A DNA stretch of 64,000 bases, from assembly GCA_015522475.1 (NCBI GenBank), contig WAMF01000018.1, positions 62,001 through 126,000 on the forward strand, given 5' to 3'. The stretch is from Microcaldota archaeon (GTDB lineage: Archaea > Micrarchaeota > Micrarchaeia > Anstonellales > J096). The translations under genes were made by a program, and so were the position numbers. Shown here piece after piece: positions 1,743 through 6,888 of this stretch (positions are counted from its first letter, which is position 1; each line of letters opens with the position of its first letter). A model generated the notes under the pieces. The model was not told the origin of the DNA and searched no databases. It worked only from the letters and a program-made list of their open reading frames with translations.

Positions 1743-2777
1743 TTATTTCATTTCTAAGACGTCTTGCAAGGCCTTTACTAGGCTTATAGTAGATATGAAT
1801 ATAAAGGTCGGCAACATGACTGTCACAGCTCCTAAGAAACCTATTTCTTCGATGGTATTCACTATACCGTAGCCAAAGGCAAAATAAAAGCTACCTAAAG
1901 AATAGTCCCAAAAGGGAAATATGAGTGTGTGAAAGAGGTCCCGTATCTTACTGAGTATGCTTGTATTGGGCGAGTAATACGGCTGGAAAAATGACGGCTG
2001 ATGGTAATGGTTAACGAGTATGTCGTTTACTGCTGAGAACATCACAATGTAAAGGAGGGGCATGAAGATGGTGAAGCCCAAAACTACTGCCAAGAGCTCG
2101 TCCCCTGCATCTCGTGTAAATGGAAAAATGCGCAAAAGAAGGCCAAAGGGCACGAGAAAGTCGTATGCAACGAGTTTTATGAGCTCTAGCGTGAAGATTT
2201 GCACTTCTAAACTTATTATAAAGACAGGAAAGGCATTACGTATAAGAACCAAAGCAGATAGAGGCACTTCTAAACCTAGGCCTAGGCGCGTCTTAACGTC
2301 GAGACCCGGCGTACCTACCATGCTCACAGAAAAGCCGCTGTAGATTTCTATGGCGTGGATTATGTTTATGAGTTCACCAAAGAATGGGAGGACTCTATTG
2401 TAGAGTAAGGCCCTTAAGATGTTGAGATTCATACCTATAAGGTCCTTTGTCGAAGATTGGAGAGCACTAGGCATGATAGTATTTTTGGGAAAAAGCATAG
2501 TTGTTGGTGCGTTTACTTGCGTGCCTGGAATAGGTTTTACATTGGCGAGAAGCGTATTCTGTGCATAGAGAACAGCTAAGTGAGAAAGCGCTGAATAAAG
2601 GCCTATAATAAGTATAATGTAGAGCATGTTTATCCAAAGCTGTGTGAGCTCTTCGTTAGCCCATGCATCCCACTCCGGCTTCATGGCAATCTTAGCAGCC
2701 ATCTTTGTTATGACAATTGCCGCCACCATAAGAAGCAAAGCAATGTATATGTAAGCAGGAACGATGAGCCACATCAT
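1743..2777 (-). CDS. Polytopic membrane protein, paralogue-like to neighbours
   Basis: 344 aa ORF, multiple TM segments, motif LLLRIFPFTRDAGDELL. Confidence 0.8.
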   Translation of the reverse strand: MMWLIVPAYIYIALLLMVAAIVITKMAAKIAMKPEWDAWANEELTQLWINMLYIILIIGLYSALSHLAVLYAQNTLLANVKPIPGTQVNAPTTMLFPKNTIMPSALQSSTKDLIGMNLNILRALLYNRVLPFFGELINIIHAIEIYSGFSVSMVGTPGLDVKTRLGLGLEVPLSALVLIRNAFPVFIISLEVQIFTLELIKLVAYDFLVPFGLLLRIFPFTRDAGDELLAVVLGFTIFMPLLYIVMFSAVNDILVNHYHQPSFFQPYYSPNTSILSKIRDLFHTLIFPFWDYSLGSFYFAFGYGIVNTIEEIGFLGAVTVMLPTFIFISTISLVKALQDVLEMK

Positions 2778-4072
2778 ATCACCTTCTGAAGACCAAAGAG
2801 GAGAGGCTCTCCACCTAGAGCTGTAGCCAAAGCTTTGTATGCCTCTACAGTGAATGTAATTTCAAGGACTAACGACACAAAAACTGCTATAACATCGTAG
2901 CCTAAAACAAGCATGCCTGCCATACTGGCGTCAAACATCGTCTTAGCTACCTGAGGGCCAAATACAAACATATAGATAAGATTAAGAAGGATGGCTGCAA
3001 GCATGATCTTTGACGAAAGTGGTTTAACAGTGCCTGCGCCTCTCGATGTGGGTTCGTTAGCCAACAGCAAGGCATAATTCATACCCATGATCCCAATCGA
3101 AGATAGAGAAACAAGTGAGCTCCCCACAGAGTGGGTGAGAGGCTTCTTTATAAGCTCTTCAAAGGTTACGCCTCCGGCTGTATTCCAAAAGGAGCGTGTT
3201 TTCACATAGTCAGAAGGATACTGACTAGCTCCAGATTGATACATCTTCTGAAGGTTATTTGAATTGAATATGAAGTCTACATAAGAATCTGCTAATTTCT
3301 TATACTGTGTTGAGCTCCATCCAAGGTCAGACGGCAGGCGAAGGTTTACTGGATCGGGTATAGAAATAAAGGGCTTATAAACGTCTGAAAATAGATAATC
3401 TGTAAACAGAACCGAGAGAGGGTAAACATAGTAGACTGCAATAACAAGAGCAAAAAGAGCTGAGCCCAACGACTTCGTCGAGGGAAAACCTCTAAGAAGG
3501 ACTGCTATGGGCAACATGCCCGAAAAGAGGAGGGGAGCAATCTTTATAAGGTAATCTCTAACGACAACGAGACCTATAACCAAAAGGAACTTGTTAACAA
3601 GCCAACCGATAAAATTATATAAAATTTGGACACCAGCCAAAGGCTGCAGAACTGTGCCCATAACGCCCGTAGCAGACGGTAGAGGAAAGACGATGTTCAT
3701 AGAGAAGAGCATGTTAAGAAAACCTTCGAGAAAAAAGAGGTCTAAGTAAGCATTGGTAACATTGCTTAGAAAGTCCTGAATGGATATGTCCGCTAGAAAG
3801 ATGTGAGCATCCATAAGACTAACGGGCAAATGAGAGATGCCTATTAAATCCAGCACAATACCGTTGAGAAGAGGAATGGCAAACGCTATACCTCCAAAAA
3901 GCAAAGCAGTTTCAACAGAGCCCGAAACCGCCTCTTTAGCTCTAGCCTGCATACTTGGGTCGTTGAGTATAAGAGAGATGAAATAGTAGATAACGGCTGT
4001 AAACACAGCAATACCTATAGCTATGGCTATGTATGCTAAGCTGCTTATGAGGGCTACACTGAACACAGTCAT
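2774..4072 (-). CDS. Polytopic membrane protein, paralogue-like to neighbours
   Basis: 432 aa ORF overlapping the next gene by 4 bp; many TM segments, motif VLLRGFPSTKSLGSALFALV. Confidence 0.8.
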   Translation of the reverse strand: MTVFSVALISSLAYIAIAIGIAVFTAVIYYFISLILNDPSMQARAKEAVSGSVETALLFGGIAFAIPLLNGIVLDLIGISHLPVSLMDAHIFLADISIQDFLSNVTNAYLDLFFLEGFLNMLFSMNIVFPLPSATGVMGTVLQPLAGVQILYNFIGWLVNKFLLVIGLVVVRDYLIKIAPLLFSGMLPIAVLLRGFPSTKSLGSALFALVIAVYYVYPLSVLFTDYLFSDVYKPFISIPDPVNLRLPSDLGWSSTQYKKLADSYVDFIFNSNNLQKMYQSGASQYPSDYVKTRSFWNTAGGVTFEELIKKPLTHSVGSSLVSLSSIGIMGMNYALLLANEPTSRGAGTVKPLSSKIMLAAILLNLIYMFVFGPQVAKTMFDASMAGMLVLGYDVIAVFVSLVLEITFTVEAYKALATALGGEPLLFGLQKVI

Positions 4073-4271
4073 TCGCCTTAAATATACCTCAATATGTTTA
4101 AAAGCATATGGTCGCTTTCGCTGTTGGAGTGTGCAAAAATCAGAAGAAGAGTGCTGTCTCTTCTAAGACACCCTTTTTCAACCTCTAGGCTAGGCTAGTT
4201 GCTGGCTTATGACACATGCACTCTATTGTCCACACCAACATATTTAAAAATGTTTCAATGTATGTATATGC

Positions 4272-6218
4272 GTGGCTAAAGTAAAAAGCGGAGAAAACAA
4301 AGCCAATATGTACACACTTGTATGGAAGGGCTTGCTAGATGCAAAGAAGATTAGAAAGAAAGCCAGCCCAGATGCTGCACCGTTTCTTCCCCTGGATTTA
4401 GATTTCACCATGTTTAAGAACCTATTTAAGACATCGGTAAAAAGTAAAAACAAGGCTTTTTCAAAGGAGCTCTTTCTGGAGGAGATTAAAGACTTCAAAT
4501 GGAAGAAGAACTTCGACAAAAAATTGAGAGAGGAACTGTTGGAATTGGGAAGGGACATATTCAACATAGTTATAGGAATCGGTGAGAGAAGCGAACTCAG
4601 TCATATAACGCCGGAAATAGCCCTGTATATAGCGACATCTACAGTAAAAGGAGATGGCCTTATACATCAGCTCCTTTCGACAGTTCTAGGAAAAACGCCT
4701 CTTAGTGAGGCAATTGTAGAGCTTTTAAATGAACTGACAAAGTTAGGCACAGCTATAGGGGATATAAATGACGATGAAGAATACAAAGGCGTATTGACGC
4801 CCATGGAAGTAGTTGTAGATGAAGAAAGATTAAGCACTATAAGAAAAGAGTTGATGGGCCATTTAAAGAAAACATATCCTGCGCTGGCCTATTTCGCAGA
4901 GAAGGATAAATTGAAGCTCCTCCTGAAAGATATGAAGATAAATAACCCACAATTGTCTGAGCTTACATATAGAGAGCTATGGCACATCAGCCTTGGAGTA
5001 TCTCTTTACCTCTCTGCAAGAACCCTCGCAGCTGTGAGCACTTTATACGAATTAGAGGTTTCGCAAGGAGGAAAAGCGGTCATGAGAAAAATGCTGAAAA
5101 GAACAAGTTTGAGAGTCCCACTAGTTGCTGCCAGCGTCTTCAGCCACCAACTAAAAAGTGAGGGCTTGCATACACTTGCCTCATACGTATCCAACATAGG
5201 GCTTATATCAACAGAAGGAGGATATGGATTCTATACCTCATTGAAATGTGCATTCGAAAAACGGTACGGTCCCTTAGATGAGGTTTTACGTATCGTAAAG
5301 AGAAAAATGGCTGGAGAGCTGCTCAAGGAAGATGGAAGACTTATATTCAAAGGGAAATTAAAGGCTAGAATAAAAGCGCCATATGAGCTACTAGAAAAAG
5401 CAATAAGCTTGAAAAATAATGGCAACATATTCTTAAAAGATTTAAACAAGGAAAATATTGTAGAAAAGTTACTAGCGTTCCATGACTTAGTTGGTATAAG
5501 ATACATAATTGATGACCACAGCTTCAGCAGCTTTGAGAAAGAGACGTACACCAAAAAGCGTCAGGGTGTATTAGGCAAAGTTAATAAGCAAATAAAAAAG
5601 AGAATAAGTAAAAAAGGGACTATATTGTGGAACAGAGAAGTGAAGACCTCTAGCGCTCAAATAAAAGAGAATGCAGAGATAGTAATTAATCCGGAAAAAC
5701 GCTATTCTAAACATCCAAAGGAAGAGACTGGCTACGACAGAGATCATTACCTTTTTCTTGTATATTTTGGGAATTACCTACTTCCTGTGGAGCTGCAAGT
5801 AGATACCGCCTCGAACAACCATAGAATAGAACAAGAGCTACCCCATGGTGTACAGAAAAACGCGGGTAACAGAATAAAACATGGTAAAGAAATATCCGAG
5901 AAATTTAAAGAAGGTTGGATAGATTTTATATTGAGAATTAGAAAAAACGGTTCAGCAAACTCACCGGTGTTCAAAGAAATCTCTGTGAGGGCGTACTCTC
6001 AAACCGCAATAAAGATCATAAAGAAAAAAGTAAATGAGATTGCAGAGGATCTTGGTGTAGAAGTAGGGATGGAGTCGTTTAGAGATACGTCTGCACAAGT
6101 AATCACAGCTATTCAAGAAGGAAAAAAGAAAATTTGCATTATGTGCATTTTACGTAAATCTGGAAGTAAAAGATACTTGAATATATTCATGCCAAAAGGG
6201 GGTGAAGATAATGAATAA
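4272..6218 (+). CDS. RelA/SpoT-like nucleotidyltransferase domain protein with large helical N-terminus
   Basis: 648 aa ORF; motifs ARIKAPYELLEKA, FHDLVGIRYIIDD, GYDRDHYLFLV, LPVELQVDTASNNHRIEQELPHGVQKN resemble RelA_SpoT synthetase core. Confidence 0.55.
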   Translation: MAKVKSGENKANMYTLVWKGLLDAKKIRKKASPDAAPFLPLDLDFTMFKNLFKTSVKSKNKAFSKELFLEEIKDFKWKKNFDKKLREELLELGRDIFNIVIGIGERSELSHITPEIALYIATSTVKGDGLIHQLLSTVLGKTPLSEAIVELLNELTKLGTAIGDINDDEEYKGVLTPMEVVVDEERLSTIRKELMGHLKKTYPALAYFAEKDKLKLLLKDMKINNPQLSELTYRELWHISLGVSLYLSARTLAAVSTLYELEVSQGGKAVMRKMLKRTSLRVPLVAASVFSHQLKSEGLHTLASYVSNIGLISTEGGYGFYTSLKCAFEKRYGPLDEVLRIVKRKMAGELLKEDGRLIFKGKLKARIKAPYELLEKAISLKNNGNIFLKDLNKENIVEKLLAFHDLVGIRYIIDDHSFSSFEKETYTKKRQGVLGKVNKQIKKRISKKGTILWNREVKTSSAQIKENAEIVINPEKRYSKHPKEETGYDRDHYLFLVYFGNYLLPVELQVDTASNNHRIEQELPHGVQKNAGNRIKHGKEISEKFKEGWIDFILRIRKNGSANSPVFKEISVRAYSQTAIKIIKKKVNEIAEDLGVEVGMESFRDTSAQVITAIQEGKKKICIMCILRKSGSKRYLNIFMPKGGEDNE

Positions 6219-6888
6219 GGAAGTAAACCCTTACAACAAGTTTAATAAGAAAAGTAGTGCTCCGCTAAATCCGCATGCTTGGTTCAACCACCACCCTTAT
6301 GGAAAGATAGATGTCAAGAAAGAGCGCTGGCTTAGGCCAAGAGACCAGCAAGAAACTAAGCAAAAGATAGATCAGCTGTTCGCATCTAGAATTATTGAAG
6401 AGCTGCTTAAAGAGGCAAGTAAAGAATGGAAGGAAAAAGGTGCTGGCTACAGAATTGAAGAGCTTGCAAAGTTTAAACAATGGATGGCACTATTTTCAGA
6501 GAAAGAAAGTAAAGGAAAGCTCAACGAGGTATGGAAGAAAACACCGTATGAGAGGTTTTTTGAGACGCTCGACAGAATGGCAGAAATGATTGAAAGAATA
6601 CATATAGGCAACATTCAACTTATCTACCTAACACAACCTCTTCGAGAGGACGTATACACCTCATTGAAGGTAGAGACAGTCATACTACTAACATGGGAAG
6701 GAGAAGGACTCCATTGGCTCAGCGAGAGGATAAAGAGCACACTTAAAGAAAAACTTAAGGCAAATGTGGACGAGATAAGTTTTTCATTATACGATGACCA
6801 CAAGAAGAGAGGAGAAGGTGAGGCGTTCATAGTGAGCTATGTGTACAAAGGTAAGCCAAAGAAACCCAAAGATGTCAAATTAAGATGA
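6211..6888 (+). CDS. Hypothetical protein, operon partner of RelA/SpoT-like protein
   Basis: ORF overlaps upstream gene stop (ATG at 6211, upstream TAA ends 6218; alternative GTG start 6202); no recognised family. Confidence 0.75.
   Translation: MNKEVNPYNKFNKKSSAPLNPHAWFNHHPYGKIDVKKERWLRPRDQQETKQKIDQLFASRIIEELLKEASKEWKEKGAGYRIEELAKFKQWMALFSEKESKGKLNEVWKKTPYERFFETLDRMAEMIERIHIGNIQLIYLTQPLREDVYTSLKVETVILLTWEGEGLHWLSERIKSTLKEKLKANVDEISFSLYDDHKKRGEGEAFIVSYVYKGKPKKPKDVKLR

Follow-up and report, generated by a model that had tools for sequence, protein, structure and literature searches.

The window analysed here is a 64,000 nt stretch of contig WAMF01000018.1 from a Microcaldota archaeon, whose genome amounts to 910 kb on 23 contigs. 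Two MAGs of the same genus are deposited under the names 'Candidatus Micrarchaeota archaeon' (JALWQW01) and 'Euryarchaeota archaeon J096' (RFJG01). On the forward strand of the window, a gene for a RelA/SpoT-type (RSH) protein overlaps a shorter ORFan, and the following features were assigned to the locus.

4243..4250, + strand: TATA-like TTTAAAAA, ~22-29 nt upstream of the GTG start, read from the sequence
4272..6218, + strand: RSH gene of 648 aa with a GTG start (ORF call; homology by leave-one-out HMM and profile-profile comparison)
5127..5324, + strand: residues 286-351, a stretch like the HD-synthetase linker of long RSHs (family profile against long RSHs)
5367..5375, + strand: R366-x-K368, invariant in the family alignment
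5484..5501, + strand: D405-x-x-G408-x-R410, with D and G invariant in the family and R in the genus
5502..5729, + strand: lysine-rich insert between the DxxGxR and GY motifs, seen in alignments, longer than in long RSHs and unconserved in content
5733..5747, + strand: G487-Y488-x-x-x-H492, with Y and H family-invariant
5790..5807, + strand: E507-x-Q509-x-D511-T512 (usually ExQxRT), with E family-invariant and QxDT as the genus form
5844..5858, + strand: H525-G-x-Q528-K529 (usually H-x-x-Y-K), with H and K family-invariant and HGxQK as the genus form
5916..6191, + strand: residues 549-640, a small C-terminal alpha/beta region without a Pfam match (AF2 pLDDT mostly 63-79, the rest of the model being poor)
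6198..6205, + strand: Shine-Dalgarno-like GGGGGTGA, 5 nt upstream of the ATG at 6211, read from the sequence
6211..6888, + strand: partner ORFan of 225 aa, likely from the ATG at 6211, sharing 8 nt with the 3′ end of the RSH gene

The 648-codon ORF was thus found in place, together with the four motifs quoted in the original prediction. The TATA-like element lies so near the GTG start that a leaderless transcript is suggested. The genes 3′ of the locus have housekeeping roles (an HMG-CoA-synthase-like protein, a TtuA-like tRNA thiolation protein and replication factor C), and the ribosomal proteins S17 and L14 are encoded farther 3′. On the 5′ side, the opposite strand carries a row of membrane-protein genes (1743-4072, − strand) belonging to no Pfam family, the order of which is retained in the sister genomes (L120, L121) at a different site.

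Direct searches of the window proteins against Pfam, PADLOC, PHROGs, NCBIfam and, with phmmer, the PDB yielded nothing meaningful; PF04607 gave no match in the own genome at E ≤ 10, and a scan of the genome contigs with the window protein alone recovered no relative. As these direct searches fail, the homology link is transitive. P0003, a homologue from the same genus, is 36% identical to the window protein in the catalytic region (E = 5e-6). It reaches 44.8 bits against PF04607 (cut-off 27), the third genus member P0004 reaches 49.5 bits, and P0003 also matches RelP/RelQ structures in the PDB. A synthetase HMM iterated on proteins of the phylum, from which the window protein had been left out, recovered it at residues 404-529 with an E value of 9e-8. 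Using hhalign, the window protein alone matched the long RSHs of the phylum at E = 4.8e-6 and the family profile matched them at 4e-20. When a family profile with the window synthetase region as its first row was compared with the PDB, the significant matches were RSHs only; long RSHs ranked at the top, the best being E. coli RelA (3e-14), and no toxSAS entries were among them. The synthetase domain is thus related in sequence to PF04607 via the relatives, the leave-one-out HMM and the profile-PDB comparison, and membership in the RSH superfamily is secure at the level of sequence. This bears out the proposal of a RelA/SpoT-type nucleotidyltransferase in an archaeon, although the absence of a RelA_SpoT profile match had been named as a result that would speak against it. 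A direct search literally gives that absence, and we judge this standard too strict, as transitive homology holds. The missing direct family or PDB match would also fit an ORFan that is unrelated to RSHs and resembles their motifs by chance, but the link through the genus relatives and the leave-one-out profile contradicts this reading, which we consider extremely improbable. An AF2 model of the RSH protein built on a 3-row alignment was of low confidence (mean pLDDT 43). Its 13 best Foldseek matches were all small alarmone synthetases, but with an E value of 0.015 at best and a TM of ~0.12 they were not counted as proof of the fold.

The window protein carries the full set of RSH-superfamily residues, RxK, DxxGxR, GYxxxH, ExQ and H..xK, and keeps all ten family-invariant alignment columns (R, K, K, D, G, Y, H, E, H, K). 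The original prediction of synthetase motifs in their proper order is confirmed by this alignment of catalytic residues, as is that of an insert between motifs 2 and 3. Over the aligned core, the RSH shares 27-31% identity with its genus mates. The HMG-CoA-synthase-like neighbour is 79% identical across the genus; a neighbouring membrane protein is likewise low at 34-36%. Such fast divergence, the unrecognisable HD, TGS and ACT domains and the loss of motif residues in several relatives of genus g3 in the family alignment could point to a decaying or repurposed RSH that has given up catalysis and acts as a regulatory or binding protein. However, the window protein and its genus retain every family-invariant residue despite 27-31% identity. 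This would be difficult to account for if the active site were not under selection, so that we regard a non-catalytic protein as unlikely. The altered QxDT and HGxQK forms, together with the fast divergence, could mean a changed activity. The lineage may even have left (p)ppGpp signalling, with these genus-specific forms reflecting another pyrophosphate acceptor, either a tRNA end or an adenosine nucleotide, and with the rapidly changing ORFans 3′ of the RSH genes as cognate regulators or antitoxins in a conflict with a host or virus; we hold this to be improbable.

The first ~280 residues of the RSH occupy the position of the HD domain in long RSHs. Neither a Pfam match to HD nor a recognisable HD motif was found in the protein, in agreement with the earlier remark that an obvious hydrolase motif is lacking, and no TGS or ACT domain was detected with Pfam. 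The stretch preceding the catalytic domain, when compared alone with the linker of long RSHs, scored 23.7, whereas 60 column shuffles reached 12.3 at most; as its E value is 0.017, the match is suggestive only. Sites limited to long RSHs reside mostly in the helices joining the two domains (PMC3153485). The weak linker match before the catalytic domain puts the unrecognised N-terminus at the place expected for a decayed HD domain. Assignment of the entire N-terminus as an HD domain was rejected, because only ~71 columns adjoining the synthetase align. Canonical proteins composed of HD_4, RelA_SpoT, TGS and ACT are also present in the same phylum. The window RSH is probably a long RSH with a degenerate HD domain.

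A stand-alone HD_4-like protein is encoded elsewhere in the own genome at the start of a contig (G000:C5:1-933; L109) and contains the motifs VHP, HDVLED and KLADMADN. It scores 25.5-27.2 bits against PF13328 (cut-off 27.2) and matches Rel structures at E = 1.5e-3. The counterpart in the sister genome G001 is clearer, with 38.4 bits and E values of 5e-15 for Rel structures and 5e-12 for a (p)ppApp hydrolase. The protein of the own genome is a candidate alarmone hydrolase. HD_4 proteins of this kind were not found in G002 or genus g3, so the pairing of RSH and HD_4 is not strict; all of these genomes are incomplete.

Alarmone synthetases had been described as rare in archaea, which does not hold within this phylum, where 67 of the 301 genomes contain PF04607. 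In the taxonomic family, the RSH is present as a single copy in eight of the nine other genomes (nine of ten with the window genome included). The three RSH proteins of the genus form a clade in the tree (support 99/98), and the best tree places the nine family proteins on one side of a branch with weak support (53/86), which allows a single origin of the RSHs of the family. In three genomes of genus g3, the RSH gene has stayed next to a divergent epimerase gene, with the S12 and S7 ribosomal genes nearby; another family of the order likewise has epimerase-like genes next to its RSH genes. The genes flanking the window RSH are not adjacent to each other in the sister genomes in the synteny comparison. 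No phage, viral or plasmid matches were found at the RSH locus, and an origin of the RSH from such elements was rejected on this ground. The RSH gives the impression of a resident signalling enzyme, not of a toxin.

The gene downstream of the RSH requires separate consideration. The original prediction correctly described an overlapping ORFan, but its length of 228 aa should likely be revised to 225 aa, since the GTG at 6202 falls inside the Shine-Dalgarno-like sequence and the ATG at 6211 is therefore the likelier start. The partner belongs to no family in Pfam, PADLOC or the other collections searched and has no significant match in the 301 genomes; its AF2 model, predicted alone, has a pLDDT of 38 and is not interpretable. 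In both sister genomes, an ORFan on the same strand also closely follows the RSH gene, at distances of 16 and 26 nt. Homology among the three downstream partners was rejected: BLASTP between P0002 and the two others, shuffled Smith-Waterman comparison and hhalign gave no support, and the MAFFT alignment of the three is forced. In other genera, the RSH gene is followed by genes for an AGOG DNA glycosylase, a translation elongation factor or others. The AGOG DNA glycosylase genes of genus g3 overlap the RSH end (L082:7421-8116, + strand; L083:5685-6362, − strand); the product in L082 matches PF09171 with 187 bits, and that in L083 is similar by eye.

This arrangement bears on the emphasis originally placed on a toxin-antitoxin or defence module. 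A toxSAS-like effector would modify tRNA ends or produce (p)ppApp, with the 225-aa partner as its antitoxin or sensor. An overlapping, translationally coupled ORFan, the closely spaced ORFans in both sister genomes and the rapid divergence of the RSH would all be compatible with such a module. Yet the RSH, with 648 aa and a long N-terminal part, is not a small synthetase, and its nearest structures are long RSHs. It is moreover a single-copy gene in nearly all genomes of the family, with partly retained gene order and a housekeeping neighbourhood. Searches of Pfam and PADLOC revealed no antitoxin of known type (Panacea, pZFD or Tis1) next to the RSH, and the ORFan is not shared with relatives. 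Because the partner is unrelated to the genes following the RSH in the sister genomes, and the next gene in g3 encodes a DNA glycosylase, the toxin-antitoxin reading is weak. The unrelated partners only weaken it, since type II antitoxins of a single toxin family may themselves be unrelated (PMC11782079). Overall, the single-copy lineage, the similarity to the linker of long RSHs, the housekeeping neighbours and the unshared partner do not bear out the emphasis on toxicity, and we consider a toxSAS-like effector improbable, if somewhat less so than a protein that has lost catalysis.

We therefore favor, as the likely explanation from sequence comparison, a resident and fast-evolving RSH, probably a long RSH with a decayed HD domain, that has kept its synthetase residues and would make a (p)ppNpp alarmone. 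Its ancestor would have been a long RSH with HD and synthetase domains, the HD half of which decayed past recognition while the synthetase residues were retained. The whole N-terminus may descend from the HD domain, although the similarity covers ~71 columns with an E value of 0.017 alone. Under stress, the enzyme would pyrophosphorylate a guanosine or other nucleotide at its 3′ position, with ATP as the donor, to produce (p)ppNpp. Control of the synthetase may be exerted by its helical N-terminus and its small C-terminal region, and the alarmone could be broken down in trans by the separate HD_4 protein.

Compared with known systems, the window RSH resembles the long RSHs (Rel, RelA and SpoT, including E. 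coli RelA and L049) in the order of the synthetase motifs, the top PDB profile matches and the linker similarity, and it shares with RelA the lack of a hydrolase motif. It differs from them in that HD, TGS and ACT are undetected, in the insert between motifs 2 and 3 and in the QxDT and HGxQK forms, and its identity to L049, a long RSH of the same phylum, is ~18%. The small alarmone synthetases RelP and RelQ (YwaC, YjbM) share the synthetase motifs and are PDB matches of relatives and of the weak AF2 model, but the window RSH has a long N-terminal region and the linker similarity and is not a stand-alone synthetase domain. The toxSAS proteins FaRel2, CapRel, PhRel2 and Tas1 have in common with the locus the superfamily and a small adjacent gene. 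In contrast to them, the window RSH is not small, its adjacent gene is unconserved and lacks a known antitoxin domain, and it occurs as a single copy in a mostly vertical pattern.

RelA/SpoT has been annotated in the DPANN groups Diapherotrites, Woesearchaeota, Pacearchaeota and Nanoarchaeota, according to the portion of the report that covers them (PMC8407392), so the window RSH is a variant within a known kind. The present phylum is unlisted in that portion. Profiles of the kind used for annotation do not detect the window protein, making it a case overlooked by standard profile searches. In a genome of 0.9 Mb, this single-copy RSH, its synthetase residues intact, and the HD_4 candidate form a concrete pair for testing alarmone signalling in small archaea, and the RSH could help to answer whether (p)ppGpp is made by any archaeon.

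Several further observations concern RSH genes elsewhere in the phylum. A separate group of synthetases of roughly 350-385 aa (L056, L058, L060, L061, L062, L065, L066, L069 and L095) is joined by short branches across families and orders and may be mobile. Divergent RSH genes occur as tandem pairs in family f8 (L085, L086, L087 and L088), and an IPP-isomerase-like ORF, named by eye, is located just 5′ of the pairs in L085, L087 and L088. The 948-aa protein encoded at L097:2769-5615 (− strand) combines an N-terminal RelA/SpoT-type domain with a long, helical, repeat-like C-terminal part. Beside the RSH gene of the sister genome G001, at least four paralogous repeat proteins built around 'KPDLKPWQL...GYWDDPKNVKEAVEWLVEEMAKEGKKIEEI' are encoded at L022:9984-16001 (− strand).
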